Assembly: GCA_006503475.1 (NCBI GenBank) | Contig: RSEH01000309.1 | Coordinates: forward strand, 1 to 50,857 | DNA: 50,857 nt | Source of the DNA: Stentor roeselii | Taxonomy: Eukaryota; Ciliophora; Heterotrichea; Heterotrichida; Stentoridae | Direction of reading: 5' to 3' | Notes under the pieces: model-generated | Database searches by the model: none | What the model saw: only the letters and a program-made list of their open reading frames with translations | What the model was told of the DNA's origin: nothing | In this document: positions 27,373 to 47,400 of the stretch, piece after piece | Layout: each line of letters starts with the position of its first letter | How positions within the stretch are numbered: the stretch's first letter is position 1 | Program-made: the position numbers and the translations under genes

Positions 27373-29970
27373 TTATTTGAGTTTTATCCCCATTTCTCTT
27401 GATATTTCTTGATAAAGTGATATTGCTTCATTGATTGTTGGCCTTGAATAACTATTTTCATCTAGTGTTAGCTTTATGAATGATTTTAAATCATTAGAGA
27501 GAAATAAATTCATATCAATAGATACTAAAGCATCTTGAGTTGAATAATTCATGATTGATTTAAGAGTAATTAAACTGTATGCTAATAATCCGAATTGATA
27601 TATATATGATTTTTCCAAATTAACTGAACTTAATTCCATTTCTTTTATTGAATTTGCTACCTTTACAAGAGATGACCATTTTTTGAATTCTAGATTATCA
27701 GTTGATGCTAATCTTATCACACATCCGTGAAATTCACCTAGATAAATCTGGGAATCTTTGTAAGAAAGATCGAAAGGTGTAACATATTCAATATCAAGTC
27801 CATTCTCACAAATGTCTTTAAGTAGCTTTAGTAATTTCCATAGAATATGTAGTAATTTTAATTGATTAAAGATGTATCCTTTTTTTTTCATTTTACTAAT
27901 TTCAGAAGATATTCTATAAGTGCAAACATCTTTGCTTATTAAAATATAAATAGAATTTCTTTCTGAAAATGCTCAAATAAATTTAATGGGATTGCTATGG
28001 AAATTACCATATCTTTGATAATTTCTTATTTCATTAAAAATACCCTCAGCTTCAACAAATGAACTGTCTAAAAATGTGTATACTTTAACTTCTAAATTTC
28101 GTCCATTATAAGTACATTTTTTATTCAATAATTGAAGATTACCTAATTTTCTTGAATTATAGCTATTTGAATCAATTGTTAATTTCAATGTATCAATTAT
28201 AGGAATATCACTCGGTAAGACAATCTGAATATTTCTTGATTCTTTTAAAAACTTATAGTCAGGATTACTAAAATCAGTTATAAGCTTTAATGTTTTGACT
28301 TTGTATGCAGAAATTGGATCAAGAATTCTACAATCATGACAAAACCCTTGAAAAAATCCTAAAATTTCATCTGAATATTTGATATTCAACTGATGATATT
28401 GTTTTAGATTTTCAAATTCATATTTTTCTATAATATCAAGATAATCAAAAATTATAGAAGATATTTCCTCAATATAATCCCTAAGACTATTGACATTATG
28501 AAATAATTTAATAGCATTCATGATATCAGTTAAAGATCCATTTTCTTTTATGTCCTTATTAATTTTATTTTTGTAAGAAATGAAAGCTAATTTAGCATAT
28601 TTTTTAAAAGAGTATTCATATTTGATTCGTTTAAACTCAAATTTTTCATGAACTATAATCAGTTTTATAATCTCTGATATTTTATCATTTTTACTTAGCT
28701 TAGTTATTTCTTTTATCATTATAGTATCAACCGCTGAAGCATATATACTCAAGTTGTTTTGAATTTCGCTTTTTATCAGGCCTTGCAAAGCCAATTCAAA
28801 ATTATGTATAAAAGTTTCGAATTTTATTTCTTGGATTGAAGGGCCTAATTCTTTATAGCTAAGGAGAAAAGTGCATGACCAATATTCAAGTGATTCTTGA
28901 TTAGAGGTATACTGATTGTAGACATCAATTATTGATTCGAGTGAATCTGTATATTTCAATTTAGTAATTTTATTGGTTGAATCTTCCTTTTCAAATTTGA
29001 GTTTTTGAGATTCAAAAATTGTGTAGAGACCTACAATTTGAACTGCCTTGACCTCCTTTATCTGGATATTTTGATATGATTTTAACTCTGCATGATCAAC
29101 TTCTTCTTTTGATCGTAAAGATGATTCAGAAATCTCAGAAGCCTTCAACAATGACTCAGTTTCTAGATTTTTTTCATCCTTTAATTTCATATTCTCACCA
29201 AATTTGTTTAGGTGCCTATCTTTATCATCATTTATTTTTATATCTTCGTTTATATTTTCGATAAATTCAATTATAACCATTTCTTTATCATCTTTCAATT
29301 TTATTTCTTCATCTTTTAATTTATAAGATTCAATTAACCCCTTTTCTTTATCTTCTTTTAATGTAATATCCTCATTTTTTAACTCATTTGTCTCATTCAA
29401 AATTTTCTCTTTATCATCTATTATTTTATAAAAATTATTAATTTCATCATCTTTACTTTTGATGAGATCTTTCAATCTTTTTATTTCGTTTTCATTCTTT
29501 TCTTCCAACTCCCTGAAAAATTTTAAAAGTTCATTTTTTTCTTTATTAATTGCATCTAATCTCTTTTGCATTTCATCAATAACTTCATTTAATTTAATGA
29601 TCTGTTCATTATTTTTTTCAAATAATCCATTAATTGTAATTTTTGTGTCATCCTTAAATCTGTATAACCCTTTTATTTCTTTATCTTTTTCTAATATTAA
29701 AACTTGATGATTTTTGTTATCATTCAAAACTTTTTTTAAGATTTCCTTCAAATTTTTCACTTTTTCTTTATTTCTTTTTTGAAATCTTTCGAAATTAAGA
29801 AATTTGTCTTGGCCAAGTTTCTTCATATTCTCGATTTGGATTTGAATGAATTTCCAAAGCTGATCACTGCCTTTGTCAATTTTTTTGATGTTTTGTGGGT
29901 AAAATAGAGAGCTAGAGTCATTAAAAGTTACTGAATCAGCATGTACTTCAGGATCTGATATGCTTGACAT
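27373..29970 (-). pseudogene. EYWSC-domain / pseudokinase family member A, interrupted by one TGA
   Basis: Two open segments lie in one frame and are separated only by a TGA at 27973-27975. No other stop occurs between them and no 15-nt GT...AG string covers the stop. The first part (665 residues) has an N-terminal LWKFIQIQIENMKKLG segment shared with gene B, a long coiled coil with TIKLKDEE-like repeats, the EYWSC domain (EYWSC at 362-366) and the N-lobe of a kinase-like domain. The second part is the C-lobe: its catalytic loop reads IEYVTPFDLS (no HRD, no Asn), DFG reads EFHG, and APE is lost. Gene B has a GGA Gly codon where A has TGA. It is either a recent pseudogene, a truncated pseudokinase, a readthrough case or a base error. 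All else in the frame is intact. Confidence 0.75.
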
Positions 29971-30136
29971 ATATAATTATATAGATATTTTAAGTTTGAT
30001 AACCTATTAAAAAATTTAGTCTTTATTGCAAAAAATTTCGTTTTTTTCATGAAAATCTGTTAAGGAATCGGGAATAAATTTTGTTGATTAGGGAAGGCTT
30101 TTGGTGGTTATCAAATAAAAGTTCATATAATAATGG

Positions 30137-30188
30137 TAGACATTAATATATGTCTATATTGAGTTATAGACATTATTAAGTATGTCTA
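30137..30188. promoter_or_regulatory. Two inverted repeats TAGACAT...ATGTCTA upstream of gene A
   Basis: The first repeat has perfect 7-bp arms at 30137-30143 and 30150-30156 with a 6-bp spacer. The second has the same arms at 30167-30173 and 30182-30188 with an 8-bp spacer. They lie about 170-220 bp upstream of the ATG of gene A. Related GTCTAC/GTAGAC repeats lie upstream of genes B and C. Confidence 0.6.
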
Positions 30189-30686
30189 CAATTGAAATTA
30201 TAGTAAATGGTCAACAAACTCCTGTCCACAAAAGAGCTTTTCTTTGCGAAACTTTGCTTAAAAATAAATGTATTCTAATCTATCTAAATTATTATTAGAA
30301 AAGCTTTGAGCATTTGAAGAATTATGATTTTTCAAATTTGATTAACATTTCGATATATATTAATTAATAAGCTTCTATGGATGTTGAGAAATGTACTTTC
30401 TATTTGGTGCTTTGTAATATTTTCACAAGTTAAATATTAAGGAAAAAAATTAAGTATATTGTGAAACTAAGTTACACTGTGAATATTGTGAAGTCTTTCC
30501 CAGATAGCAAGTGAAATTGAAGGAATTTTTTACACGCCTTGTTAATCTTGAAAATGCTCAAGTGATCTAGTTGCCATAAATATCAAGGTTCCATTTCTGA
30601 GTAATTCAAAGAATTTTATGTTCGAATTTCTCAAAAGTGACAATCAAATGATAAACGATGAGATTATTTTTCTGGTTACTTTTTAG
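30182..30686 (+). pseudogene. Possible relic of a BTB(-BACK) protein gene
   Basis: A 38-codon frame at 30182-30295 reads MSTIEIIVNGQQTPVHKRAF and onward, similar in pattern to the start of a BTB domain (V-x-G-x-x-x-x-V-H-K). After its stop the same frame gives KSFEHLKNYDF, as in the BTB FE-x-L-L-x-Y motif. In another frame, 30591-30685 reads FMFEFLKSDNQMINDEIIFL, which fits the BACK-domain L-L-x-S-D-x-L-x-V-x-S-E pattern. Several stops and a frame change separate the parts. This is a weak, pattern-based call. Confidence 0.27.
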
Positions 30687-31304
30687 ACTCGGCATAAATA
30701 TTTTGAAAATATACTGAATATTGTAAGTATGTTTCGATTGAACTTCTTTGTAATAGCTAAAAGATTATTTCACATTCTAAAAACACTTAAAGTATTCGTT
30801 CAAAGAGTGTTACTGAAGCTTCTCAGACTTTCAAACAGCAAATTTCTGCATGAAATATGGTTTTACTTCAGAATGCATTTCCGCAACGTCTTTGCTTAAA
30901 TACTTAAATCCAAACCTAAAACATATAGGAATTTTTAAATGCAGTAAAAACTTAATGAGACAAAAAACTGTATTTGTTCTTCGAGCTTCAAGCCAAACGG
31001 TTCTAAATGCATCGAATTTTTCTTATAATTAGCAAAACAATCAGCAAGAGCAAAGAGATCTGCTCACATTCAGTCAAAGGCTAAAATTATATAATTATTA
31101 GGATTATTTTTTCTATTTAGATTTTCCAAGTTGATTGTATGTAAGAAATAAATTTATCTTTTTAAGATTTAATCAAATCAATCTTTGGTTACATATTCAA
31201 TGTAGAGTGAACAAAATGAAGATAAGTATGAAATTATATACTTATCGCTCAAACTAATGGTATTGATAACATTAGGCTATTTTCTTAATAACTACTTATT
31301 ATAA

Positions 31305-34300
31305 TTACTTAACTAAACTTATTGGTGTAAAATCAGGAAGGCTTTTTAAAGTACTAAGTGCTTCATTGAAAGTTGGTCTAGAACAAGGGTCGATTTCTAG
31401 CATCGATTTTAAAAATTTTTTGCACTCTTTAGAATAGATCAGAGTACTATCAATATCTGAGATTGCTTTTTCAGTTGAATAATTAGATATATTTTTTAAG
31501 GTTAGAATTTGATATGCTATTAATCCTAATTGATAGATATATGATTTTTCTTTATCATATGAAGGTGTAACTAGACATTTTATAGATTCAGCTTTCTGTT
31601 CAGGCGATGACCATTGTTGGTAGAATGATTCATTTATTTGAGAATATGGTCGAATGCAATCATCAAAGTTTGATAATTTTATATTTTTTATTCCTAAATA
31701 ACTACTAAAGTGATAAGGTGTAAGGTATTTTAAATTAAATCCATTCTCATATATCATTTTGAATATGTTGATAAATTCATGCAGATAGTGCATAAACATA
31801 TCTTTTTTAAGTATTAGCCCATATTGTATCAATAAATTGACAAAGTTATCTATCCAATTTCTAGTATCAAAGCTCCCATCAAAAACAATATTAATAGTAT
31901 CATTTTCTAAATATATTCCAATTAACTTAGGGGAATATAGTGATAATTGGGTTAATTTTTGAGTGATTCTTATTTCATTAAAAATACCCTCAATGTTCTT
32001 ATAATTTTCATTAGGAAATTTGAATGTTTTAAGGTAACTACTTCGTTCATCATATGTACAACTACGATAATTCACTTCAATGTCTCCTATTGTATTAGAA
32101 TAACTAGTGTACGAACTTAAATAAGTCATTTTAGATCTATCAATTACAATAATATCGTCAGGAATTACTAATCGAAGTATAAAAATTTCTTCCTTATTAA
32201 TAAGAGATATGCATGAAGTAGGAGATTTAATTTTATTTTTTAATTTATAAGTTTTATCTATACCTTTTGAAATATGATTTTTATGTGTAGGATCACTGCA
32301 AATATTATTGAACCTATAAAAAATTTGATAAGAATAATCAATATGTTGATGATGGTTTCTTTTTAGTTCATCAATCTCAAAATTTTCAATACAAAAAAGA
32401 TATTCGTAAATAAAATCAACAATTTCTTTCAAATAATCTTTAAGTCCTATTGAGTCAAATATTAACTTAATTGCATTCTTAATATCATTTAAATTTTGAT
32501 TATTATTTTTATCCTTAGTCCTTTCAATCTTATATTCAATAAATGAAAATTTGGCATACTGCTTGAAATTGTAATAAAAATGGCCCAATTGAAATTCATA
32601 TTTTTCGAATAAGACAACGAGTTTTATGATTTCTTCAATATGATAATCTTTGATTAGCTCATTTATCTCATTTTCTAAGATCACATCAATCGTTGAAGCA
32701 TATAAACTAAGACAGTCTTTATTTTTGTTTTTAGCAACTTCTTTTATAGCCATCTCTAAACTTTTTAGGAAATTTTGATTACCTAGCCTTGAAAAGCAAG
32801 AGCCTGAGTCTTTACAACTCAATAGAAAGACACAAGACCAATATTCTAGTAGTTCTGCACTAGATGCATAGAGATCATATAACTTTATTATTGATTCAAC
32901 TGGGTCTTCATACTTTAAAACTAGAGAACTTGCATTAGGATCATCTTTTGTTATTTTTTCTATTAAGGAGCTCGAATATGAATAAAGACCTTTAGTTTCA
33001 TTTTCTCGGTGATTTATTGTATTTAATAATTGGATTACTTTTTGGTTATTTTCCGTTGAATATTCTAAAGATTTCTCAATTTCTCGTAATAGATTTAATT
33101 TTTGTAGTTCTTTTTCATTTGGTAATTCTTTGGTCTCATGCAAAATATTATCCGCTTTAATAGAAGGATTGAAACTGTCAATTTCTTCTTTTATAATTTT
33201 ATCTGTTTCATCTCTTTTCATTTCAGAATTAGGCTCTAATTTTTCATTCAATATAATTCCTTTTTGCTCTAAATTTGTTTCTTGTTTTAATGGTAATTCT
33301 AAATGATTAACCTTAAGCTCAGCACCAACCTTTAAAGGTTTTTTTAATTCTATAAAATTCTCATCATTTTGATCTTTCTCTAATTTATTGTCCAAATTCA
33401 ATTGTTCACTTTTATTTGTCGGTTCATTTAGTTTTATATTACTTTCCTTTTGTTTCAGCTCTTTATTATTTTTTTTTTCTTCTTCCTTTAACTTTCTTCT
33501 TTGTTTTCTTGACAAGACTGGTTTATATCCTTGGTCACTGATTTGAGGTTTTTTCATAAGATTATTTTCATTCTCTATTTCTTCTTTTACAGGAATTTGA
33601 TTTAAATCATGTTTAGTTTTGATAGTTGGTTCTATCTTTTTTTCTGATATTTCAGGTTTTTTCATAAGATTATTTTCGTTCTTTATTTCATCTTCTACAG
33701 AAATTTGATTTAAATTATCTTCAGTTGTAATAATTGACTCAATTTTTGTTTCTGATATTTGTTTAACATTTGGACTATAAAATTCTTTATGAACATCTTC
33801 CTTTAATTCCTCATTATCAGATTTCTTAATAAACTGAATAACTTTTATATCATCCTTCAATGATAACTCACAATCATCATTTATTAATTCTTGGCTATGC
33901 AATTCTAATGTTTTCAAATGTAAGTTTGATTCTTGTTTATCAATTTGTTCAATATTAGTATGAAGAAATTCATTTACTTCTCCTAATGATTTTTCTTGAA
34001 GGCCTACGCTAGCCTCTTGATTTTTCTTGTCTAAATTGTGAATATCTTCTAATTTAGACACATTTTCTAAATCAGTTTCTTTTTCTTTTATATTTAATAT
34101 TTGATCATCCTGTAAAGACTCTTCGATAATTTTATCATTCTGTTCACTAATTTTCAAAGAATTTTTAAGTTCAAATTCAATTTTCTCTTGAAATTTCCCA
34201 AAAAATTCAATAGTTTTTGCTAATTTTTTTTCTTGATTATCTTTATTTGTTATAATTTCATTTAAATTATTCATATATTCTTGTACATTATCTTTAAAAA

Positions 34301-34709
34301 TCCCAAAATTTTTTACTTCTTCGGCTTGTTTACTAATTACTTCACTCATCATCTTCTCAAGTTCGTCATTTGATTTAATAAAGTTCATGATTTCAACATC
34401 CTTTTTTTTAATAATTTCATCGATTTCTTGTAATAATTTCTTGTTTTCTTCTTCTTTTTGAGTTAGCTGGCTTTTCAGCTTCTTATTTTCTTCTACAAGT
34501 TTGATAAGACAATCTTTGAACTTCTTCAATTTTTGTTTATTTTGATCTTTAAAGATCTTGAATTGCTTACTTTTTGTATCGCCTAACTTTTTTATTTGAA
34601 GTATTTGACTTTGAATGGATGTCCAAAGGTCGTTTCCTTCTGTAAAGTTTTCAAGATTTTCAGGTTTTCTTTGCTCTGGAATGTTTGAAAAGGCTGGAGA
34701 GCTAGACAT
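31305..34709 (-). CDS. EYWSC-domain / pseudokinase family member B
   Basis: A 1134-residue protein. The N-terminal LWTSIQSQILQIKKLGDTK matches gene A. A coiled-coil and low-complexity region (about 30-570) includes a 36-residue tandem repeat. The helical EYWSC domain follows (EYWSC at 622-626, then YASTIDVILENEI), and the last 270 residues form a kinase-like fold. That fold keeps a late SPE motif (WSSPEQ) and the terminal SRPTFNEAL helix. The catalytic loop reads LKYLTPYHFSS and DFG reads NFDD, so His, Asp and Asn of the active site are gone and it should be inactive. No membrane segment. It probably works as a structural or signalling scaffold. It is in tandem with genes A and C. Confidence 0.85.
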   Translation of the reverse strand: MSSSPAFSNIPEQRKPENLENFTEGNDLWTSIQSQILQIKKLGDTKSKQFKIFKDQNKQKLKKFKDCLIKLVEENKKLKSQLTQKEEENKKLLQEIDEIIKKKDVEIMNFIKSNDELEKMMSEVISKQAEEVKNFGIFKDNVQEYMNNLNEIITNKDNQEKKLAKTIEFFGKFQEKIEFELKNSLKISEQNDKIIEESLQDDQILNIKEKETDLENVSKLEDIHNLDKKNQEASVGLQEKSLGEVNEFLHTNIEQIDKQESNLHLKTLELHSQELINDDCELSLKDDIKVIQFIKKSDNEELKEDVHKEFYSPNVKQISETKIESIITTEDNLNQISVEDEIKNENNLMKKPEISEKKIEPTIKTKHDLNQIPVKEEIENENNLMKKPQISDQGYKPVLSRKQRRKLKEEEKKNNKELKQKESNIKLNEPTNKSEQLNLDNKLEKDQNDENFIELKKPLKVGAELKVNHLELPLKQETNLEQKGIILNEKLEPNSEMKRDETDKIIKEEIDSFNPSIKADNILHETKELPNEKELQKLNLLREIEKSLEYSTENNQKVIQLLNTINHRENETKGLYSYSSSLIEKITKDDPNASSLVLKYEDPVESIIKLYDLYASSAELLEYWSCVFLLSCKDSGSCFSRLGNQNFLKSLEMAIKEVAKNKNKDCLSLYASTIDVILENEINELIKDYHIEEIIKLVVLFEKYEFQLGHFYYNFKQYAKFSFIEYKIERTKDKNNNQNLNDIKNAIKLIFDSIGLKDYLKEIVDFIYEYLFCIENFEIDELKRNHHQHIDYSYQIFYRFNNICSDPTHKNHISKGIDKTYKLKNKIKSPTSCISLINKEEIFILRLVIPDDIIVIDRSKMTYLSSYTSYSNTIGDIEVNYRSCTYDERSSYLKTFKFPNENYKNIEGIFNEIRITQKLTQLSLYSPKLIGIYLENDTINIVFDGSFDTRNWIDNFVNLLIQYGLILKKDMFMHYLHEFINIFKMIYENGFNLKYLTPYHFSSYLGIKNIKLSNFDDCIRPYSQINESFYQQWSSPEQKAESIKCLVTPSYDKEKSYIYQLGLIAYQILTLKNISNYSTEKAISDIDSTLIYSKECKKFLKSMLEIDPCSRPTFNEALSTLKSLPDFTPISLVK
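33543..33758 (-). repeat. 108-bp (36-residue) tandem repeat inside gene B
   Basis: Two complete units begin at 33758 and 33650 (reverse strand) and a third degenerate start is at 33542. Each unit starts ISE, contains DLNQI or NLNQI and ends ENNLMKKP. The unit is a multiple of three, so the protein frame is kept. It sits in the linker before the EYWSC domain. Confidence 0.85.
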
Positions 34710-35303
34710 ATTTATAAATCTTTGTAAAGAAATAAGGAAGTTTTCGAATCTTAGAACTTACTTACAGAGATATGATTGAATATTAGTACTTATGAGAGAG
34801 TTTAAGAAAATTTATATTTACATAAAATTTCTTAATGGACTAAAAATTTGATTGGATAAAAAATCATATTTAAAAATTTTTAGGTTGTAGACAACTAAAT
34901 TTTTTGTGTCTACAATAGAACATATTTTTTTAGTTAAAAAATGTATTAATATTTCAGTTCATTAGTGAATGAATTGTAAAGTTTAAGACTTTTTCTGTTT
35001 TCTTAATCAATCAATCCAAAGCAATATAAAAAATTTCACGAATTAACGATTCTTCATAAAATAGCTAAAAGTTTAGAGTCTTGGATTGATTATCTTTATT
35101 TCAAATCATTAGGTATCTTTAATGCTGAGAGTCTGGTATATGTGTAATTCTAAGTGAATCGATAATTAAGAAAAACTTTCGCTTAAAACCTATAAGAAAT
35201 ATATAAATTTATCTATTCAATATCTAGGAAAATCTTTGAATAATGGATTTATATTTGTTTTTACTTGAAACATTTTCCAAATTTAATGCACTAATCTAGT
35301 TAT
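34710..35303. other. Intergenic region between family genes B and C
   Basis: 594 bp of AT-rich DNA. It holds the upstream region of gene B with one inverted repeat (34885-34915) and otherwise no open frame or RNA gene that I recognise. Confidence 0.5.
34885..34915. promoter_or_regulatory. Inverted repeat TTGTAGACA...TGTCTACAA upstream of gene B
   Basis: Perfect 9-bp arms at 34885-34893 and 34907-34915 with a 13-bp AT-rich spacer, 175-206 bp upstream of the ATG of gene B. This is the longest arm match of the four repeats of this type. Confidence 0.65.
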
Positions 35304-38300
35304 TTATCTAATTTTTGTTAAGAAACCCAACAGCTCTTTAAAAGTTGGCCTGCTCAAATAATCTTGATTCAGCATTCCCTTCAATAAACCTTGAACACTT
35401 TCATTAAACTCATAAAATCTCTGACAGTCCAAATAAGGTTCATGATCCAAGCAGCTTTCAACATCCTTTAAAGTAATCAGCTGATAAAAAATGATTCCCA
35501 AGCTGAAAACATTAGCTTTTTCCAAATCAAAATTTTCTAAATTTTTCTTCTTAATTGCTTTTTTCTTTTCAGGGGCAAAATACTTTTGAGTTTGTTCGAA
35601 ATCCCAGAAGTCTTTAACAAAATACCTGGACTCATTGATTTTGATGAAAGTATCATCAAAGTTGAGTACTTTGTACTTAGAGTCTTGAGTTTTCACCAAA
35701 AAGAAAGGGTTGACATCTGAGTAATGGACTTGATTTTCTATCATTTGACAGAAAGACTTGACTAAAGAAGAAAAAATTTCAAGTATCTGAGAAGCGGGTA
35801 GAATTGTTTTTTTATGAATGATATCCGCTAAACTCTCGGAAAACCACTCAGTTACTAGAAATAAAATGTTTCCGTGTCCACAGGTGCCATAATATTTCAA
35901 GAAATTGTTTGAGACGAATGAAAGTTTAGATAATTTTGTAAAAGCTCTGATTTCTTTGAAAACTTCTGATAAGTCTTCAAAATTATCTGATAATGGTTTG
36001 TAAGCTTTTATGCAGACTGGAATTGTTAAATATGTACCATTGTGGATGCTTGCCTTGATGTTATTTATAGAAGATACACATCTTGCATACTCGTTTATTG
36101 ATAGTTGGGTAATTTTAATTATATGAATATCAACTGGTAAAGTATTCTGAAAATCTCTATCATTACTGAATAATCCAACTTTATTCTGAGTAATTTTTTC
36201 AATTTTTTTCAACAACCTGCTAATCCAATTCCTAACCATCAAATCCTCACAAACCCGATCAAAAGATTGAATTTTCGAAATGGCTTCTTCAATTTTAGCC
36301 TGATCATGAAAAGCTCTAGGATTGGCCAACATATCATCATTAATAACTTCAGCATAAGTAAAAATCAAATTCGCTAAAAGTCTTTCAAAGGCAACAGGAG
36401 CATTAGCAATAATAATTTGCTCAAGAGCGCGTGAAACTTTTAAACCCAAGACCTGTCCCTTGCTTTTCTTAACCATTTCAGTGATAGAAGTGATTGCATC
36501 TTTTGCATTATTTTTAAACCCAAATTCATATTTTTGCATATGTTTTTCATATTTCTTGAAAGTTTGAATCATTCTGATAATTTCAGCGAAAGAGGCCTTT
36601 TCATGCAGATCTTTTATCTCAGTCATTAGAATCGCATCGAGACTATCAGCAAAGACTTCGAAGCTATCCTGGCTGCCGTTGTTGAAAGCTCCGAAAATCG
36701 CCCAGTCAAAGTTTTTTAAAAAGGAATCAAATGAAAATTTGCTGTTGCAAGGACCATAGTCGCGACAGACATGCAGAAATAAGCAAGACCAGTATTCAAG
36801 TACTTGTGGCTCCGTCATGACTTGTATGTACTTGTCTTTAAGTGATTCGATATCGCAAGAACAGGTTAATTTTAAGATCTCTTCATTTGGGTAGTGGAGG
36901 AGAAGCTTTTTCTTAAGGGTTTTTGAGTAGTCATCTATTCTTATTTGACGAATTTGTTCTCCTTCCTCATCTTCTTCGTATTTTTGAACTATTTCTTTAT
37001 CTAGTGAATCTATTTCTTCTTTTTGCTTGGAAATCGCTGCTCGTAATCTTTGAATGCATTCTTTTTTTTGATTGGCTAGTCCTAATATTTCTTTTTCTTT
37101 GTTGCTGATGCTGGTTTTTAGTGATTGGATTTCTTCTTGGCTTTGTTGTTCTAATAATCGTAGTTCTTCTTCTAGTTGATCTATGCTTTCTTGAAGATTT
37201 TTATTTTCTTGTTCTTTTTCTTTTATTAGTCGTTGAATTTCATCTTGCTTTTCTTTTAGTTTTTGCTTGAGACCTTGTATTGCTTGGCCATATTGTTCAT
37301 TGAGTAGTCTAATTTCCTCTTTATATTTCTTTTTTATTGACTTAATTGTCATTGTTATTTGATTGTTTAATTCATCTATTTCTTTCTTATGCCTGGATTG
37401 AATTTCTTCAATTATTTCTTCATTTTGTTTATCGATCTCTTCAATTTCCCGTTCTTGCCTTTTTATTAAATCCTCCATTTCTTGATCCTTTTGTTCTCCA
37501 AGTTCATTGATTTCCCTTTTTTGTTTTTCTTGCATAATTCTTATCTCTTCGAATTGCTGATATCTATATTCTTCTTCCTTTTGCTTGATCCATTCTTCTA
37601 TAGTAATAATTTCAATCTTCTTTTCCTTAACAAGGTTCTCAATCTTTAACTCCTTTTCTCGATACTGAGCTTGAACTTTTTGCAATTGCTCTCTTTTTTC
37701 ACGGCTTCGAGTTTGATAATTTTCAATGATTTTCTGAATTTCTAGTTCATCTCCAGAAATTTCATTTCTTTTTTGATCTCCTAATATCAGAAGTTCTGCG
37801 ATTCTTGCCTTATCAAGAGTTCCAAATTCATAATCTTTGAGTGCTCCAAGTTTTTCAAGTTCAAATTCTTTTTGATATAGTTTTGTGTTGAGTTCTTCAA
37901 TAGTTATTTTTCTTTCTTCCATGATTATCGCGAATTCTTTCTCTTTTTCATTGAGGTAACTTTTTAATTCATTGTTTTTGCTTTCGAGTTCTGATAGTTG
38001 AGATTTTGTTGAAGAATGTTGCTGTTCTTTAAGTTTTCTTTCAAAATCTTCTTTGCTTGTTTTAAACTGATTTTGTAATTCTTCTTCTTTTTCTTGAAGC
38101 TTACTTTCGAAATCTTCTTTAATTATTTTAAACTCATTTTTGAATTCTTCTTCTTTTTCTTGAAGTTTTCTTTCATAGTCTTTTTCTTTTATTTCAAGCT
38201 GATTCTTTAATTCTTCTTCTTTTTCTTGAAGTTTTCTTTCAAAGTCTTTTTCTTTTATTTCAAGCTGATTCGTTAATTCTTCTTCTTTTTCTTCAATCTT

Positions 38301-38825
38301 TCTTTCAAAGTCTTTTTCTTTTGATTCAAGTAGATTTCTAAATTCTTCTTCTTTTTCTTTAAGCTGACTTTCAAAATCTTCTTTGCTTGCATTAAACTTA
38401 TTTTTAAATTCTTCTTGAAGTTTTCTTTCAAAATCTTCTTTTCTTGCTTTAAACTCATTTTTTAATTCTTCTTCCTTTTCTTCAAGTTGTCTTTCAAAGT
38501 CTTTTTCCTTTGTTTTAAGCTGACTGATAAATTCATTTTCGTTTGATTGAAGTTGCTTTTGAAAGTCATCTTCTTTTGTTTTTATCATAGTTTGAAATCC
38601 TTCTTCTTTAGTCTTAATCATATTTCTGAGATTTTTTTCTGTGACATTTAGTTCTTCCCAGAGTTTAGCTTCTTGCAAGTTTAGATCTGAGAGAATCTCT
38701 TCTGTCTTTTCTTCATCATCATCAGATAATATTGAGTCTAGATCAATTTGGGTAAAATTAAAATCACTGAGTTCTTTGCTAGATTGTTTAAATTTTTCAT
38801 CACAATATTCGCCTTCAGAATTCAT
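35304..38825 (-). CDS. EYWSC-domain / kinase-like family member C with hendecad coiled coil
   Basis: A 1173-residue protein. An acidic start (1-58) is followed by 19 consecutive 11-residue repeats (60-265, one unit 8 long) of the type EKEEELKNQLE and KEKDFERKLQ. A heptad coiled coil runs to about 620. The EYWSC domain comes next (EYWSC at 677-681, then FADSLDAILMTEI), and a kinase-like domain fills about 905-1173. The N-lobe keeps VCIK, the C-lobe keeps FAPE and LSRPTFKELL. The catalytic loop reads VHYSDVNPFFLV (Asp kept, Asn lost) and DFG reads NFDD, so phosphotransfer is doubtful. The coiled coil would form a rod up to about 80 nm if fully extended. It diverges from gene D over a 633-bp gap. 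Confidence 0.87.
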   Translation of the reverse strand: MNSEGEYCDEKFKQSSKELSDFNFTQIDLDSILSDDDEEKTEEILSDLNLQEAKLWEELNVTEKNLRNMIKTKEEGFQTMIKTKEDDFQKQLQSNENEFISQLKTKEKDFERQLEEKEEELKNEFKARKEDFERKLQEEFKNKFNASKEDFESQLKEKEEEFRNLLESKEKDFERKIEEKEEELTNQLEIKEKDFERKLQEKEEELKNQLEIKEKDYERKLQEKEEEFKNEFKIIKEDFESKLQEKEEELQNQFKTSKEDFERKLKEQQHSSTKSQLSELESKNNELKSYLNEKEKEFAIIMEERKITIEELNTKLYQKEFELEKLGALKDYEFGTLDKARIAELLILGDQKRNEISGDELEIQKIIENYQTRSREKREQLQKVQAQYREKELKIENLVKEKKIEIITIEEWIKQKEEEYRYQQFEEIRIMQEKQKREINELGEQKDQEMEDLIKRQEREIEEIDKQNEEIIEEIQSRHKKEIDELNNQITMTIKSIKKKYKEEIRLLNEQYGQAIQGLKQKLKEKQDEIQRLIKEKEQENKNLQESIDQLEEELRLLEQQSQEEIQSLKTSISNKEKEILGLANQKKECIQRLRAAISKQKEEIDSLDKEIVQKYEEDEEGEQIRQIRIDDYSKTLKKKLLLHYPNEEILKLTCSCDIESLKDKYIQVMTEPQVLEYWSCLFLHVCRDYGPCNSKFSFDSFLKNFDWAIFGAFNNGSQDSFEVFADSLDAILMTEIKDLHEKASFAEIIRMIQTFKKYEKHMQKYEFGFKNNAKDAITSITEMVKKSKGQVLGLKVSRALEQIIIANAPVAFERLLANLIFTYAEVINDDMLANPRAFHDQAKIEEAISKIQSFDRVCEDLMVRNWISRLLKKIEKITQNKVGLFSNDRDFQNTLPVDIHIIKITQLSINEYARCVSSINNIKASIHNGTYLTIPVCIKAYKPLSDNFEDLSEVFKEIRAFTKLSKLSFVSNNFLKYYGTCGHGNILFLVTEWFSESLADIIHKKTILPASQILEIFSSLVKSFCQMIENQVHYSDVNPFFLVKTQDSKYKVLNFDDTFIKINESRYFVKDFWDFEQTQKYFAPEKKKAIKKKNLENFDLEKANVFSLGIIFYQLITLKDVESCLDHEPYLDCQRFYEFNESVQGLLKGMLNQDYLSRPTFKELLGFLTKIR
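38031..38648 (-). repeat. 33/66-bp repeat encoding 19 hendecads in gene C
   Basis: The protein repeats every 11 residues, with Phe or Leu at unit position 7 and Leu, Ile or Phe at position 11, and pairs of units alternate to give a 22-residue (66-bp) superperiod. One unit is three residues short. A 4-7 hydrophobic spacing is the hendecad pattern, which makes straighter or right-handed coiled coils. Confidence 0.88.
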
Positions 38826-39458
38826 TTTATAATTATATATTGAAAGTCAAGTATTACAAGTTAAAATTAACCATTTAAAAATTTTGATGTTTTGTAGACT
38901 TTCAGCGTCTACAATTCAAAATTTTATATTAACTACAAAAATTTAGCAAATTTTAATTCAATATGAGGAAATTTATATTATAAAACTATATTAGAGGTTT
39001 ATAAAGTCACTAAATTTACAACTTGCCTTATTTACACATATTGTTTCTAATCAAGTGAATCTCACTATATCTCAATTTATATTTTCATCATAACATATAA
39101 ACGATGAAATGCTTGAGTTTGATGAACTAAGAGTAATTATCCTAACATTGGATTTACTTAGTAATCAATCTCTTTAAGTATATCTTCAATCAGATAAAAT
39201 ATTAAAATATATTAGAGATAAATTAGAATGATATTCTTAAAGTAATATAAATAAAATAGATGATAAACTTTTGATATCTTTGAGTAACTCTTATAAAGTA
39301 TTACGAAAGAAGTATTATTAAAGCAAAATATTTCCAAGTTAATCAATATCGAATATTATTCATACCTACTTGTTATTGACTCAGTATTTAACACCTTATT
39401 TTTATTTTCTCTATAACTCTATTGGGACAGCCAAATTTTCCTATTGAATAAATAATAA
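38826..39458. other. Divergent intergenic region between family genes C and D
   Basis: 633 bp shared by the two divergent promoters. One inverted repeat (38892-38914) lies on the gene C side. Near gene D there is only a pyrimidine-rich stretch (about 39390-39440) and no copy of the repeat. No open frame found. Confidence 0.5.
38892..38914. promoter_or_regulatory. Inverted repeat TTGTAGAC...GTCTACAA upstream of gene C
   Basis: Perfect 8-bp arms at 38892-38899 and 38907-38914 around a 7-bp spacer, 67-89 bp upstream of the ATG of gene C. Arms are the same sequence as the inner eight bases of the repeat upstream of gene B. Confidence 0.65.
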
Positions 39459-41297
39459 ATGTCAAGCAAACTCTATGAGTACTCATCACATCTGAGGACC
39501 ACTTTATTTAATTCTCATTCAAACAGCGAGTTCCTTACAATTGACTATAAAGCTGAACTACCAGTTCTAGTTAATTACATCGAGTTTGCCTTAGGGAATG
39601 AAAACCTTTCTGAGTACTGGTCCTGCATATTTCTAATTCTCTGTGAAGACAAAAGTCCCGGCATCATTAAAGCGTTGACATTTGACTTATTTATCCAGTA
39701 CTTCCAATTCGCTTTGAATTCAGTGCTAAAAAAAGCTAATAGCAGCCTCTTAGTCGCCTACGCAAGCTGCATTGATGGATTCCTCGTAAATGAGATCATA
39801 AATCTTGAAGAATCTGAAAAATTACCTTTTGTGATCAAAATATTAGAAGTAATCTTTCCTTTTCAAAACCTTCTTCCACTTGATAACTCAGCCTTCAAAG
39901 CGAAAGCTGAAATAGTGATGTGCTCGATTTGGGAAAATATTGAAAAATTCAATCAAAGAGAAGTTCCAGGTGACGAGGTGGTTTTGGTGACTATGCAAAT
40001 GTTTATTGCTTTTAAATCAGGACTTAATGTGCAAAGCATGGTTTTTTCTTTGTCGGAAGCCGCTTTTGAATATGTAAACTCGCTTGAAGCGGATAGATTA
40101 GATCAGAAAGTCGCCGCAGGTACTGCAGAAATGATTAAACAACTTGGAGAAATGACTGATGATCAGCAAGTCAAAAGTAAAGCTCAAGAACTATTGATTA
40201 GATTTGGAATTCGATGGGCACCTCGAGAAGAACGCAATCTAAGTTTACCTCGAGAAGAAAGTGATTTAAGCTTACCTCGAGAAGAACGCAATCTAAGCCT
40301 TCCTCGAGAAGAATGCGAAATAAGCTTACCTCGAAGAAAACGCGATCTAGGCTTACCTCAAAGAGAAAAATATTTAGACCCACCTAAAAAAGTAGAAAAT
40401 CAAGGGATTAATGAGTTTATTGGAAAAATGAAAGGATCTCAACATATTCAAGAAAATGAAATCATTATCACAAATCCTCCGATATATGCGATGCAGAGGA
40501 AAGATGTGCATACTAGCATCAATATAGGAACGTATCATAATAAAAAAGTCTGCATTAAAACCTATAGAGTGCTTAATGGAAATAACACACAATTACAAAA
40601 AGCTTTTGAAGAGATAAAAGTTTATGAAAGACTTTCTGAACAGGCAAATGAAAACAATTGCTTTTTGAAATACTACGGGACAGTCGCAAGTGTAAACTCT
40701 TTAAGAATGGTAATGGACTGGTATGAGAAAAACCTGATGGAAATGATAATCGATCTTAAAGACAAAAATTTCAAAATCAATGAAATTTTATTCACTAATG
40801 TTGCTCACAAACTCATCAACTCATATAGGCTAATGTTGGAACTTGGTATTCTTCATAACGACATCAAGCCTCATAATATCATGGTTGATGAGAAGAATTG
40901 GTCTTTTAAGATCATCGACTTTGACCTCGCATTGCTGAAAATGGAAGAACTGACCTTTTCAAATACTGGAAACTTTTTAATTAAAGGAACTATGAGTTAC
41001 TTGGCACCTGAACTGAAGCAAGCTTTAAAACAAGGGCAAAGTCAATTTAACTTTAACAGGGAAAAAGCAAATGTTTATTCTTTAGGATTAGTGCTTTATC
41101 AGTTTTTGTTGTTGAAAGATAAGATTCCTAAACATCAAGAAATATTATTAGATATTGATGGGTTTTCAGGATGTTCTGATCGAACGAAACAATTGTTGAA
41201 GACGATGCTGCAAATGGATCCAACACAAAGATCAACTTTTAAAGAGACTTTAGCACTGGTGAATAAAATAGAAGTGACAGCTTCATTTGGAAATTAA
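39459..41297 (+). CDS. EYWSC-domain kinase-like family member D (active-site residues kept)
   Basis: A 612-residue protein without the long coiled coil of genes A-C. The EYWSC domain is near the N-terminus (EYWSC at 52-56, then VAYASCIDGFLVNEI). Helices follow to about 250, then a 9-residue repeat (255-308) and a kinase-like domain (about 345-605). The kinase part has VCIK (Lys367), HNDIKPHN with Asp468 and Asn473, DFD at 487-489 in place of DFG, APE at 516-518, a VYSLGLVLYQ helix and PTQRSTFKETL. The glycine-rich loop is very weak (SINIGTYHNKK). It therefore keeps the Lys, Asp, Asn and Asp needed for catalysis and may be an active atypical kinase. It is the best reference for the fold of the whole family. 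Confidence 0.85.
   Translation: MSSKLYEYSSHLRTTLFNSHSNSEFLTIDYKAELPVLVNYIEFALGNENLSEYWSCIFLILCEDKSPGIIKALTFDLFIQYFQFALNSVLKKANSSLLVAYASCIDGFLVNEIINLEESEKLPFVIKILEVIFPFQNLLPLDNSAFKAKAEIVMCSIWENIEKFNQREVPGDEVVLVTMQMFIAFKSGLNVQSMVFSLSEAAFEYVNSLEADRLDQKVAAGTAEMIKQLGEMTDDQQVKSKAQELLIRFGIRWAPREERNLSLPREESDLSLPREERNLSLPREECEISLPRRKRDLGLPQREKYLDPPKKVENQGINEFIGKMKGSQHIQENEIIITNPPIYAMQRKDVHTSINIGTYHNKKVCIKTYRVLNGNNTQLQKAFEEIKVYERLSEQANENNCFLKYYGTVASVNSLRMVMDWYEKNLMEMIIDLKDKNFKINEILFTNVAHKLINSYRLMLELGILHNDIKPHNIMVDEKNWSFKIIDFDLALLKMEELTFSNTGNFLIKGTMSYLAPELKQALKQGQSQFNFNREKANVYSLGLVLYQFLLLKDKIPKHQEILLDIDGFSGCSDRTKQLLKTMLQMDPTQRSTFKETLALVNKIEVTASFGN
40221..40382 (+). repeat. 27-bp (9-residue) tandem repeat in gene D
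   Basis: Six units of nine residues start at residue 255, of the type PREERNLSL, PREESDLSL and PREECEISL, drifting to PRRKRDLGL and PQREKYLDP at the right end. The first four share the DNA string cctcgagaaga. The array is a linker between the helical domain and the kinase-like domain. Confidence 0.9.
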
Positions 41298-41578
41298 TAG
41301 TTTAGATAATAGTTTATGGAGGAAAGATTTTATAATCTAAAGTAGAGATGTCTTGATTTTTTTTAAAGAACAATATCAATAATCCAATTAATTTGTTAGA
41401 ATTATTGAATCAGCCTAATAATACGCCTGATTGTTAATTATAGAAACGAATATAATAATAGGAAAAGCAAAGTAACGAAGGGGTCTAATGGGATTGTCTA
41501 ATGCACAATGTTAAGTGATGTATTAATCAAATTTTGTCTATTATCAACTGCATAAATATTTTACTATGTTATTGATAT

Positions 41579-41794
41579 TTATCTAAGAATGAAATGCGAT
41601 CATACTGATATCATTCTACTAATATTAAATTATTTGAAATAAAGGTAGGTTTTTGAAAATAATATATTGTTTAGTTTATGAATTTCTATTAAAACAAGGA
41701 GTTATTCATAGTGATTTGATTCATCCTTCCAAAGAAAATATTTCTTTTAAACTATACCAAATCTCAAAGCTAAATCAGGTTTATGATACTATAT
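41579..41794 (+). pseudogene. Relic of a sixth kinase-like gene, closest to gene E
   Basis: Within the 580-bp gap between genes D and E (41298-41877), bases 41638-41794 read GRFLKIIYCLVYEFLLKQG then VIHSDLIHPSKENISFKLYQ. This aligns with RYLNIIRDLVFYFKVMVELG and IFHSDIRPHNMFVDDYWSIK of gene E, across the catalytic loop. Further left, the 17-nt string ttatctaagaatgaaat (41579-41595) equals 42019-42035 in the N-terminal part of gene E. Stops and large deletions remove the rest. The remainder of the gap shows nothing else. Confidence 0.65.
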
Positions 41795-41877
41795 AAGTTG
41801 ATTAATATCTCTATTAGTCTTTGAGTATTCGGATTAGACTTAAATCGTCAAATTTTCTATTGTTTAATCGAATATAA

Positions 41878-43395
41878 ATGAATCGTGAGTTTGTATGTGA
41901 GTATGAAGATTGCAACAATAAATTTGTTTCTGTCTGTAATCGTTGTCAGCCAAGTAAGGTCTTTTGCATCAAACATTGTGCAAAACATATTAAGCAGACT
42001 AGGCACATACCGAATGAATTATCTAAGAATGAAATCGAAGCGATATTAATAAAAAAATATAGGAGCTTGACAAAGGAGACTATATCCATGATCGTCGATG
42101 CAAGCAATCAGATTATTAAAGAAATTAATAGAAAAGCAGCCTCAGTACTTCAGACAATAAAAAAATACAAAACAAATTTGTCGATCATTCAGAAAATCAA
42201 GGAAAATCTAACTGATCGTAAAAGACTTGATAGAATAATAACCTCTGCTAAGAAACTATTTCATCTTAGCAGTAAACATTTTCAAACTCTTGAGAAACCC
42301 TTAGAAAAAATAACTGAACGTTTTTCTAAAAGCACTATTCGAAAAATTGAAAAATCTGCATCGAAACCATTTCGAATAGCTTCTAATAACCCTACAGAGA
42401 AATATACTAAAAAAACTTCAAAGAAACAAAAACCTTTTTCGATATCAGCTGATTACACTGGAGGAATAAATGAAAGTATATCTTTTCCAAGTTTTGATTT
42501 TGATATAATTACAATTGATAAAGAGTTAGTTTATATGAATAAAACATCAAGATATACAATACATAGAGAAAGTAACCCATGCAATTTTTATGATGGCATC
42601 TTTGATAAAGAGAAAGTTTGCATTAAAGTTTATTCTTTGAAAAGTGAGCAGTCAGAATTATCAATGGTTAAAAAAGAGATAAAATTATTTGAAAAATTAT
42701 CATCTCAGTTGAATTATGAAGGCTTTTTAACATATCATGGTGCATTTATTGAAAATAATTCAATTAATCTTGTAATGGATTGGTATGAGTATAATTTAAT
42801 TGATATAATCAATATGTGTCAAGGAAGATCTTTTAAATTTAGTGAAACTCGATATTTGAATATAATAAGAGATTTGGTATTTTATTTCAAGGTAATGGTG
42901 GAATTAGGAATTTTCCACAGTGACATAAGACCTCATAATATGTTTGTAGATGACTATTGGAGCATTAAAATTATTGATTTTCAATTAGCGACTATTAATG
43001 ATCATGAGTTTGATGTTATGGAATCAAAAAACAAGCCTATAGAAAATTGTGAATGCTATTTTTCACCTGAAATAAAATTAGCATTGAGCAGTAAGACAAA
43101 CTCACCCAGTTTCGATATAGTAAAATCAGATATTTACTCATTGGGAGTTGTTCTATACCAACTCATGACTTTCAACAACTCATCCATTTATAAAATGAGT
43201 CATAATATGATCATCGCTGATATTGATAATGTAAGTAATTTCTCAAAGGAAACAAAAGATATTATTAAGAAAATGCTTATTATCGATCCAGCTTCTAGAC
43301 CGACATTTTCAAATATCTTAGACCTTGTTGATCAGAATCCAATCTTATATAGAACATTATCACCATTGAAGCCAATCAAACATTTATTTAGCTAA
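41878..43395 (+). CDS. B-box-like zinc motif + kinase-like protein, family member E
   Basis: A 505-residue protein. Residues 1-45 hold a B-box-like metal motif with Cys7, Cys12, Cys20, Cys23, Cys30, His33 or Cys34, His37 and His43. A helical coiled-coil part (55-165) and a basic linker follow. The kinase-like domain (about 215-490) is most like that of gene D: VCIK (Lys250), HSDIRPHN with Asp349 and Asn354, DFQ at 367-369 instead of DFG, SPE instead of APE, and IYSLGVVLYQLMTF. The catalytic Lys, Asp, Asn and Asp are kept, but the glycine loop is not obvious. It lacks the EYWSC domain, so the family appears to have exchanged N-terminal parts. B-box plus coiled coil suggests oligomerisation, as in TRIM proteins; this is inference. 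Confidence 0.82.
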   Translation: MNREFVCEYEDCNNKFVSVCNRCQPSKVFCIKHCAKHIKQTRHIPNELSKNEIEAILIKKYRSLTKETISMIVDASNQIIKEINRKAASVLQTIKKYKTNLSIIQKIKENLTDRKRLDRIITSAKKLFHLSSKHFQTLEKPLEKITERFSKSTIRKIEKSASKPFRIASNNPTEKYTKKTSKKQKPFSISADYTGGINESISFPSFDFDIITIDKELVYMNKTSRYTIHRESNPCNFYDGIFDKEKVCIKVYSLKSEQSELSMVKKEIKLFEKLSSQLNYEGFLTYHGAFIENNSINLVMDWYEYNLIDIINMCQGRSFKFSETRYLNIIRDLVFYFKVMVELGIFHSDIRPHNMFVDDYWSIKIIDFQLATINDHEFDVMESKNKPIENCECYFSPEIKLALSSKTNSPSFDIVKSDIYSLGVVLYQLMTFNNSSIYKMSHNMIIADIDNVSNFSKETKDIIKKMLIIDPASRPTFSNILDLVDQNPILYRTLSPLKPIKHLFS

Positions 43396-44415: not shown

Positions 44416-47400
44416 CTAATTATATAATGATAAAACACCACTTTTCATGATTGAATTTTGATCTCGAGTTCTCATATTTTTTATTTTATCTTTAAATTTC
44501 TTCAAAACTTCAAGCATTTTGTACATCTCAATCAAACACTCGATTCCAATAAACGATAGAACACTGTAAATTACAACTTGACTAAAAAAAGTCATCCAGT
44601 AATCAGTTTCAATGAATGTCATAATAAAAATAGATAAAAATACAATTAATAAAACAAATTCTGATAGGATAAGCACAATTCGCCCAGTTTTTTCTTTTAA
44701 ATTTGCATAAAACACAAAATAACTCAAACAGACCATAGAAGAGAAGCTATGAATTCCGAATTGCAATGAATAGTTTTCATCACAATAAATTTGACTATAA
44801 ATAAAAACAAATCGTCTTATTAAAAAAAACGAATAAAAGTAAAGACAGGCAGTATTTTTATTATAGTCGAATTCTTCAAATAAAGTAGAGTAATTTCGAT
44901 GTACTTGGCTATCTGGAATATTTGTTATAGTTTCTTTATTCCTTGATATAAAATAAGCGACAAGAAAAGGGCTGATAAAGAAAGACATCTTTGTAAATCT
45001 TACAATAGCAAAACTAGCCAAACTATAGCTTATATAAAAAACAAAAGACTCATACCTTGGCTCCTAAGTATAATTTACTGAAAACAACTGATAAAACCCA
45101 AACACCCCAAAGTCCAAATAACTCTGAATCAAGAACCTTAAATAAAACCCGTATTTATAGTCTTTTAAGTATCGAGTAAACTTTTTCGATATAAACTTAA
45201 CATCAACCCTCGAGAAACAAAAAACAAATGGCCAAATTAAAGTCGTTCCGACAATAATAGTAATCTGAATTCCTAAATTAAGAATCATGTTAGAAGTATT
45301 TATTCCAAGTTCTTCAGAATCTCGAAAAGTCTCCGGACTTACATGGGAATCAATAAAATAACTGAAAACATTAGGCAAAAATTCAAAACTTACCATTGTT
45401 GAACAAAACTTTCGAATTGCTGGAGTCATTTTGAATGAACTTATCGGGATGTACCACATAAGTTGAAGAGTGCTGAATAACATCCAGAAACTTGATGGGT
45501 TTGAGTTAAAAGACACAAACATTGAAACTGAAGTTATTCCTAAAGTTGCTACCTGAGAATTTGAAATGATTGTATTCAAAGTACCTGGGATAAATTTGAA
45601 CTCTTTCAATGTAAAGTTAAAAGAGTACTGAGATAAAGTTTCATTTTTGGTAGTCAATACTGGAAACTTATTTATCTTCAAAGTTCCTTTCGTCCCATTG
45701 ACTATTGATTCTTGGAAGTCAATTTTTAACCAAAAGTCTAGATTTTTGGAATTTTTTATGTGGACAAGCTTAAACTGTTTGACTGATGGAATATCCAAAG
45801 AGAAATCAGTGAGGTTCAATTCAGTCTTAACCTCGTTTTCAAAAGAAAGCTTCAAATGATTATTAACCTGAACACTTATACTTGCTTTAAAGTAACTCAG
45901 AGCACATCTACCAGAAATGAGGGTTGTTGGAAAAGCACAAATGCAAGAAGAGTCAATCAAACTAAAGGACTCAGAACATTTTACACATTTTTCAAGTGTT
46001 TCGCAGACTTCGCAATAATCTGCACATCGATCGCACTTTTCACCAGATAAGAAAAACCCTGCTTTGCATTTGCACATATCATGAGGGTCAGAATTTTTAT
46101 CTTTACATGAATCACATGAAATGTTATTATGACAAGTTAAACACGAAGCATTGCATTTGATACACGAATCTGAAGACAAAAGAGACGACAGATTCCAATA
46201 TCCTTCTTTACATTGGCATTTTTGACTGACTAGCTCTGCATTTAAAGAGATGCATTCAAAGCATTTTCTGGTTTTATCACATGTTCGACACCAAGGGTCG
46301 CACTGTGCGCAAATTTTTGTCAATTCAAATGAAGCTATTTCAAAATAATCACTTTTACACTGAGTACAATTCACTAAATTGACACATGTTTCACATCCTT
46401 CAGGACATTTGACACAGGTTAAGATTCCTGAAATGTTCTGAAGCAAGTATCCCTCGATGCAAGTGCATTCATTTCCATTAAATACACTGTTAGTCATCAG
46501 ACATTCAGAGCATTTAAGATCGTTTTCACAAGTCTTGCACGATTCAAGACATTTTATGCAATCATCATCAGCGGCTTTGTGAAAAAGCCAATACCCTTCA
46601 TCACATACTTCACATGAAGACAAATCCAGGCATGACTTGCAATAAGTCTTGCACTGCGAACAATCTGAAAATGTTCCAGAGTTGAAAATAGGCCAATATC
46701 CAGTGAGACATTCGCAACTCGGAACTGAAGCTTTCGATGACTTGCAGGTCGAGCAGGTAGTCCCATCAATGCAAGTCAAGCAGAAATCTGAACAAATCTG
46801 ACAAGAGTAGCCTCCGTTATTTTCTATAGCTTCCCAGTAGCCATCACTGCATCGGCATTCATTCAAAATATCAGAAAAACTTGACTTGCAAGAAAGACAC
46901 CCTGAAGAATCGCAAGTAAGGCATCTTGAAGGGCAAGCCTGGCATTTATTGCTGGTCTGGTTTTTCCAAGAGTGATTTGGACACTCGCATCCAGAGATCA
47001 AAGGAATTGATTCAGGGTCCAGGCAAGAAAGGCATGAAACTGAATTATCGCAGGTGAGGCAGTCGACATGGCATTTTTCACAGTGATCAAATAACGAGTT
47101 TATGTTTATCGGAAAATATCCTGGATCGCAATTGCAATGTGGTAAAAATGCATTTGGTGACTTACAGGTGAGACATTCTGATGATGATTGACAACTTGAA
47201 CAGAAATCACTACAAGGGTCGCATTTTTGTAAAATACCTAATATATATACCGGGAAATACCCTGATACGCATTCACAAAGTCCAGATGCGTTAATAGACG
47301 AATAGATGTGACATGACAAACAGCTTGCGCTTGATTCACAGGTTAAACATGAAGGCGAACAATTTTGGCAAATAAGCTCAGTTGCTGACTTGTATGGCCA

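Follow-up and report, generated by a model that had tools for sequence, protein, structure and literature searches.

A gene cluster with a shared front domain

The window, as the whole stretch of 50,857 nucleotides from Stentor roeselii analysed here is called, is contig 241 of a genome of 44.4 Mb in 522 contigs and contains, at positions 27373-43395, a cluster of five genes, A to E, which were read under the standard code (Table 1). In genes A-D, a helical domain of about 260 residues lies ahead of a kinase-like domain; gene E has a B-box-like motif in its place. Judged by genome and profile searches, A-D are a corner of a larger, lineage-expanded family of paralogous protein kinases. In their common layout, a front domain of about 260 residues, predicted to be all-helical, is followed by a linker that varies and then by a kinase domain. 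An earlier note, made from the letters alone, had proposed a common domain before the kinase-like part of A-D, marked by the string EYWSC, and N-terminal parts that vary from gene to gene. Both points hold. With the front end of gene D alone as query, an independent test, gene B was found at an expectation value (E) of 1.0e-13, gene A at 2.9e-12 and gene C at 2.2e-11, a likeness that on these scores exceeds chance. Genes A-C start with coiled-coil-like regions (judged by eye, without a predictor), D with the helical domain at residue 1 and E with the B-box-like motif. A profile (A1) built from 12 copies of the domain scored A, B, C and D, all four part of it, each at E 3e-88 or better.

Table 1. 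Genes A-E of the window and their parts
Feature	Position	Strand	Basis or remark
Gene A	27373-29970	-	not a single open frame; TGA splits 665 codons from a 3' part of 199 sense codons
Gene A, coiled-coil-like charged N-terminal region, residues 1-309	29044..29970	-	translation
Gene A, helical (EYWSC) domain, residues 312-569	28264..29037	-	hmmsearch i-E 2.6e-88; A itself in profile
Gene A, kinase-like remainder	27373..28263	-	interrupted by TGA at 27973-27975; 199 sense codons beyond
Gene C	31305-34709	-	fully open, 1134 codons
Gene C, long charged coiled-coil-like N-terminal region	32997..34709	-	two-copy 108-bp repeat at 33541-33760
Gene C, helical domain, residues 572-830	32220..32996	-	profile; gene D front-end match, E 2.2e-11
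Gene C, pseudokinase-type domain, residues 867-1122	31344..32111	-	family profile, 202.9 bits
Gene B	35304-38825	-	fully open, 1173 codons
Gene B, coiled-coil-like N-terminal region	36948..38825	-	internal 33-bp (11-residue) tandem repeat
Gene B, helical domain, residues 627-882	36180..36947	-	profile; gene D front-end match, E 1.0e-13
Gene B, pseudokinase-type domain, residues 913-1170	35316..36089	-	family profile, 251.9 bits
Gene D	39459-41297	+	translation, standard code
Gene D, helical domain, residues 1-258	39459..40232	+	profile; 12 helices in predicted model
Gene D, linker with 27-bp tandem repeat, 5.2 copies	40220..40359	+	tandem-repeat analysis
Gene D, protein kinase domain, residues 340-602	40476..41264	+	Pfam PF00069, E 2.5e-26
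Gene E	41878-43395	+	translation, standard code
Gene E, B-box-like Cys/His motif, residues 7-43, replacing the helical domain	41896..42006	+	ordered Cys/His pattern
Gene E, protein kinase domain, residues 223-485	42544..43332	+	Pfam PF00069, E 7.6e-25

The motif that had been ascribed to the domain was recovered in part. All four genes A-D contain EYWSC, whereas the F-L-x2-C string occurs in B, C and D, the corresponding residues of A being FLLSY; YAS-x-hydrophobic-D is found in A, C and D and is replaced by FADSLD in B. A DNA pattern for EYWSC (serine as TCN only, AGY not covered) gave 10 matches genome-wide and a reversed control pattern 3. Six of the ten lay in family members, those on contigs C40 and C244 fell outside family frames, and those on C344 and C383 were left unread. 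The exact string was seen in six family copies only (A-D and the loci L012 and L016), and variants such as EYWCC, EYWSI, HYWSS, RYWST, NYWSI and EYWMV occur in others. With at least two of the ten pattern matches outside family frames as well, EYWSC was rejected as a defining mark; judged by these copies, it is merely the best-preserved stretch of the helical domain.

The restriction of the exact string to six copies could be taken to favour a domain private to the four window genes in which the earlier note had described it, but this has practically no chance of being right and is already refuted: the gene D front end matches six other contigs (C200, C157, C64, C124, C38 and C50) at E 5e-17 or better, and profiles find more. 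The combination with a kinase-like part is likewise found well beyond A-D. By its own terms, the earlier note would have been refuted by a strong Pfam match or by absence of the combination elsewhere, and neither was seen. Altogether, the D front end gave 17 genome places with an E of at most 1, and 12, the query included, reach 1e-10 or better. All 12 strong matches precede a kinase, a kinase-like part or a broken kinase; a helical domain without a kinase was not found among them, which is the only evidence on that point.

Front ends were read in 36 family members: the 12 from which the profile was built, a further 19 that are more distant, and E, L011, L021, L032 and L065. L024, L048 and L051, whose fronts are badly broken or truncated at the end of a locus or contig, were left out. 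The helical domain was whole in 27, partial in 2 and undetected in 7. Among the 19 distant fronts, which come from loci found via the kinase part, 11 scored at least 10.6 bits with the first profile (maximum of 950 shuffles, 9.6), and a second profile added L064, L026, L084 and L077 at 13.3-27.9 bits (960 shuffles reached at most 8.7 bits, and 94 unrelated reading frames at most 8.6). E, L032 and L065 had no match to the first profile, the only one run on them (the L065 front was run inside L031), and in L011 and L021 a B-box-like start is followed by no more than the final third of the domain. Since 23 of the 27 whole copies sit in frames of 512-612 residues with the layout of gene D, the usual form is that of gene D, and A-C, with their coiled coils, are the exceptions.

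No family name could be attached to the domain, as the earlier note had anticipated. The 12 copies gave only noise in Pfam (best E 0.022, to nine unrelated families with one member each), and its HEAT, ARM and TPR repeat models did not match the front domain. Sequence searches of the PDB with the helical domain gave nothing in one case and a single match at E 0.13 in another. The structure predicted from the four window copies consists of 12 helices, with moderate confidence (mean pLDDT, the predicted local distance difference test, 76.7; predicted template-modelling (TM) score, pTM, 0.69), residues 1-160 being more confident than 161-220. With this model, no Foldseek match reached E 0.001 in the PDB (best E 0.033, with a TM score of 0.22) or in a viral library. 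The highest query TM score among the 50 matches listed was 0.42, and many of these 50 weak matches are designed or natural helical-repeat proteins. That frequency and the 12 successive helices would suit a diverged HEAT/ARM/TPR-like repeat missed by present profiles, an explanation to which we give a real chance, if somewhat less than an even one, given the lack of any match beyond noise in Pfam, by PDB sequence and in both Foldseek libraries. On the predicted model, the front is best described as an all-helical domain without a Pfam name, perhaps a diverged alpha-solenoid. No relatives were found among 26 pattern matches of the helical profile in viral contigs or among 41 of protein D in prokaryote genomes, both scans reaching fairly close relatives only, and a literature search retrieved nothing on the domain or its kinase layout, which does not establish its absence from print.

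The kinase family and the exchange of its front ends

About 90 places in the genome match the kinase part, 58 of them with open frames of 520-650 amino acids as printed. They comprise 71 of the 82 matches of a first search (the rest being front matches or second pieces of genes) and 19 from a second one; both searches score best candidates only, and the frame at C88:90264 differs between them (743 vs 559). As 39 of the 90 lie within 10 kb of another, where 3.5 would be expected from uniform placement, the expanding family suggested earlier is supported. The best PDB sequence matches of the kinase part are mixed: an unspecified Ser/Thr kinase, MRCK, Chk1 and B-Raf. In seven intact paralogues, mean identity was 39.5-52.7% for the kinase vs 26.9-33.8% for the front, and the corresponding values were 45.2 and 28.2% for D, 30.9 and 23.3% for B, and 26.7 and 23.3% for C. 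By this measure, gene D follows the family pattern, gene C is nearly without the gap between kinase and front and gene B is intermediate; in the pairs measured, fronts diverge faster than kinases.

Catalytic residues were compared in 34 kinase domains, gene A, L021, L024, L025 and L048 being left out as cut or broken. The Lys, the HRD Asp, the loop Asn and the DFG Asp are all kept in 28, D and E included, and losses were found in B, C, L032, L064, L065 and L083. Gene B keeps the Lys and the HRD Asp, with the loop Asn changed to Phe and the DFG Asp to Asn; gene C keeps only the Lys, with Tyr, His and Asn at the other three positions. The Pfam Pkinase model scored D at 93.1 and E at 88.2 bits (cut-off 31.7) and did not match B or C at E 1, despite their high family-profile scores (Table 1). 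Because the four residues are kept, D and E are likely to be active enzymes, of the type called non-RD since the typical HRD Arg is absent: D reads HND and DFD, and E reads HSD and DFQ, so that the DFG Gly is missing as well. The Arg is lacking in 17 of the 28 intact kinases and the Gly in 24, and HND together with DFD is common to D, L010-L015 and L020. B and C are likely pseudokinases by their residues. The kinase-like part is not simply the common output that had been suggested: D and E are ordinary kinase domains by Pfam, B and C are without some of the catalytic residues and A is interrupted, so that three of the five genes look catalytically dead. Outside the window, the catalytically dead L064 (C45:18135 onward) lies directly downstream of the intact L034, forming a second pair of active and dead neighbours.

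That the N-terminus is exchanged had been proposed earlier and is now supported by two pairs of kinase sisters with unrelated fronts. In a kinase-domain tree of 27 rows, in which 8 of 24 inner branches are well supported, L010 (helical) pairs with L011 (B-box-like) at 99/97 and L023 (helical) with L065 (nucleoside triphosphatase, NTPase) at 100/100. Residues 148-535 of L011 match residues 183-573 of L010 at 57% identity and nothing ahead of them is significant, which means that the B-box-like start replaces the first 182 residues of the L010 helical domain. Beyond this breakpoint, synonymous divergence (dS) is of the same order in the helical tail (0.91) and the kinase (0.61). As read from these pairs, fronts have been replaced at least twice, by a B-box-like start and by a putative STAND-type NTPase region.

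Three proteins, E, L011 and L021, combine the B-box-like start with a kinase, that of L021 stopping short (profile positions 2-182 of 263). With the B-box consensus as a yardstick for ordered Cys/His ligands, the pattern C-x4-C-x7/8-C-x2-C-x6-C-x2-H-x3/4-H-x3/5-H was found in these three and in nine others, L054-L062; the Pfam B-box model matched neither gene E nor L011 nor L054. Gene E matches L010 from E residue 213 on and, by the first profile, has no helical tail, unlike L011 and L021. It is alignable with L011 over much of its length at 31% identity, which may reflect one shared capture of the B-box-like start and a later loss of the tail in E. The first 210 residues of gene E have 116 other genome places at E 1 or better, many of them weak; many proteins, often small ones, start with such a Cys/His motif followed by helices. 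On C179 (L056), adjoining B-box-like and kinase genes were considered as a nascent fusion and set aside, a couple of such neighbours being expected by chance on a rough estimate.

The P-loop NTPase region of L065 scored 23.6 bits with nSTAND3 (cut-off 27.2), 20.9 with NACHT (26.7) and 22.1 with AAA (21.2), so that the general AAA model alone is passed. Its relative L067 passes the cut-offs of nSTAND3 (28.9 vs 27.2), NB-ARC (23.8 vs 23.5) and TPR_10. The STAND-type set includes L065 (C282), L066 (C469), L067 (C402) and L068 (C339), and further places on C20, C162 and C383; L066-L068 end in TPR-like repeats, as read. As NLR-like proteins in a heterotrich-type ciliate, the members of this set would merit separate study.

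Non-RD kinases are frequent in immunity, and the family might serve as an innate-immune-style repertoire for intracellular sensing, used like NLR, RIP or IRAK proteins, with exchangeable sensors on a non-RD kinase and pseudokinases as decoys or regulators. Helical, B-box-like and STAND-NTPase fronts would then be combinatorial sensors on interchangeable, mostly non-RD kinases, and the coiled-coil pseudokinases oligomeric regulators. Such a set, if real, would be an independent counterpart of the kinase repertoires of plants and animals for innate immunity or self-recognition. In its favour, the same kinase occurs fused both to a putative STAND-type NTPase region and to B-box-like starts, 17 of the 28 intact members are non-RD, the expansion is clustered and the fronts diverge faster. 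We nevertheless hold it improbable, in either form: no positive selection was seen, all measurable ratios of nonsynonymous to synonymous divergence (dN/dS) being below 1, a single NTPase fusion was found, whose kinase (L065) is without the DFG Asp, and the data contain no link to infection.

Probable active kinases, proposed scaffolds and possible decay

The reading we prefer, and think somewhat more probable than not, is that the family consists of modular kinases with exchanged fronts, in which D and E are active while B and C, at the least, are pseudokinases that oligomerise and serve as scaffolds or regulators. The helical front would be a docking or regulatory domain that recognises a partner and either holds the kinase off or brings it to a substrate. 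In kinases without an Arg before the catalytic Asp, a switch by phosphorylation of the activation loop is less likely; many members are without that Arg, and for them control by the front fits better. Linkers would vary through tandem repeats such as that of gene D. The coiled-coil-like starts would make A-C oligomeric and, together with the lost residues or the interruption, point to scaffolds or regulators; B and C at least would most likely act in this way and not as enzymes, while D and E would remain active kinases.

In gene A, the part beyond the in-frame TGA matches residues 964-1119 of gene C (39% identity, E 1.6e-30), and the 199 codons there are open, which none of 2000 random sequences achieved by chance; the interruption is therefore recent or tolerated. 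It may be a recent nonsense change or a site of read-through. A tiny intron hiding the TGA is not indicated in the 15 bases before it, where no GT was seen by eye. A general code with TGA as Trp, which would turn A into one frame, was rejected because TGA ends two whole-looking frames and 80 of 82 kinase-family matches are without an internal stop. Of 33 family frames, 16 end in TAA, 10 in TAG and 6 in TGA, and one is cut by the locus end; the TGA-ended frames are the whole-looking L017 and L026 and the broken or shortened A, L025, L021 and L048. Going by these frames, the host looks to use the standard code. The end of contig C244 (L008, first ~145 bases) consists of telomere-type repeats of CCCTAACA. 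CCCTAACA is also reported as the telomere repeat of Blepharisma, which reads UGA as Trp (PMC9942806).

Whether the coiled-coil copies are retained or on their way out was weighed with dN/dS values (NG86), which, with large divergences and a simple method, are indications. For A versus C, the helical domain gave a dN/dS of 0.41 (bootstrap range 0.23-0.61) and the kinase-like part one of 0.73 (0.49-1.03), with the kinase-like value the higher in 192 of 200 bootstraps; by this comparison, constraint seems stronger on the helical domain, unlike in other pairs of the family. Six measurable kinase values of other pairs were 0.20-0.37, with dS saturated in three of nine pairs, B versus C included. 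The closest pair, L036/L080, is under purifying selection, with 0.26 in the front and 0.21 in the kinase.

The raised kinase-like ratio, the TGA of gene A, the catalytic residues gone from B and C, and the internal tandem repeats of A, B and C alike would all be expected if A-C were decaying copies, with the kinase lost after duplication and coiled coils that are functionless repeat expansions. The repeat of gene B comprises about 18 units of 33 bp at 38025-38609, with higher-order units of 66 and 123 bp. Decay is going on in the family, as shown by copies that are broken, shortened or internally stopped, in some readings: L025 (C38) and L048 (C200) with internal stops, L021 (C157), whose kinase is short, and L024 (C321). 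For A-C themselves we find decay doubtful. None of 2000 dinucleotide-Markov sequences of like length and make-up stayed open over the 1173 codons of B or the 1134 of C, the codons past the TGA of gene A are open too, and the helical ratio of A versus C is still 0.41. Given frames open beyond chance and the constraint between A and C, we think it likelier that B and C have been kept as scaffolds whose kinase domains are spent.

Several observations weigh against the preferred reading. Gene A may be a retained scaffold likewise or may be on its way out, and the scaffold role of the coiled-coil copies is one that we infer. The two bootstrap ranges of A versus C overlap, and a second alignment of B versus C gave a kinase-like dN/dS of 0.26 which, although too saturated to weigh (dS 3.12), speaks against relaxation. 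B and C are joined in the kinase tree at 91/92, below the star of the program and on long branches flagged as possibly false, so that one origin of the coiled-coil form is not secure. Concerning the family, L035, L079, L081 and L082 of the 19 distant fronts were undetected by either profile, and the share of 27 in 36 is not unbiased, since L077-L079 entered the set through a match that extended into the front, a choice that favours detection (L079 failed nonetheless). The 90 kinase-part places are not 90 genes, two lying within one frame on C178 and some being broken, and their weak end probably holds unrelated kinases.

The first 84 residues of gene A have one clear match in the genome, gene C (E 7e-7), and one weak place (E 0.007), for which reason a borrowed module was rejected as the origin of its coiled-coil start. 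The repeat protein encoded at 45064-49107 of the window is long and rich in cysteine, has hydrophobic segments in its C-terminal part and, judged by eye, probably lies at the cell surface.

Comparison with known systems

Heterotrichs are giant single cells that regenerate, and the cluster offers a lead for how single cells diversify signalling. Reiff and Marshall are said to have described, in 2017, the expanded kinome of Stentor coeruleus (bioRxiv 168187), with lineage-expanded kinase families of odd architecture. The Stentor kinome is reported to be massively expanded, and the DYRK family is singled out (PMC9371601). The present family is one concrete case of such an expansion, with a front not known to Pfam, a mapped swap breakpoint and apparently active and dead copies side by side. 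Diversification of the input of a kinase family becomes testable here on natural sister pairs such as L010/L011.

Fused/STK36-type kinases resemble the present proteins in that a kinase or pseudokinase is joined to an all-helical domain. ULK4, SCYL and VPS15 are further kinases with HEAT/ARM superhelices. The ciliate Fused kinase CdaH is described as having an armadillo domain and STK36 a related HEAT domain (PMC10565251). In all these kinases, however, the helical part lies near the C-terminus and is recognised by Pfam, whereas here it is N-terminal and unrecognised.

MLKL and RIPK proteins likewise combine a kinase or pseudokinase with a helical or sensor part. With the whole gene D model, 1860 PDB matches at E 0.001 or better were obtained, the first being the MLKL pseudokinase domain and RIPK1 also being listed; the best 50 were to the kinase fold, at 15-21% identity, and the four-helix bundle of MLKL is absent from these 50. 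B-box zinc-finger proteins share the Cys/His pattern with gene E, which, however, is not matched by the Pfam B-box model, and the B-box-like starts described here are joined to a kinase. In conclusion, lineage-expanded kinases of odd architecture were already known; what is new here is the unnamed N-terminal helical domain, its mapped exchange and the clustering of dead and active copies.

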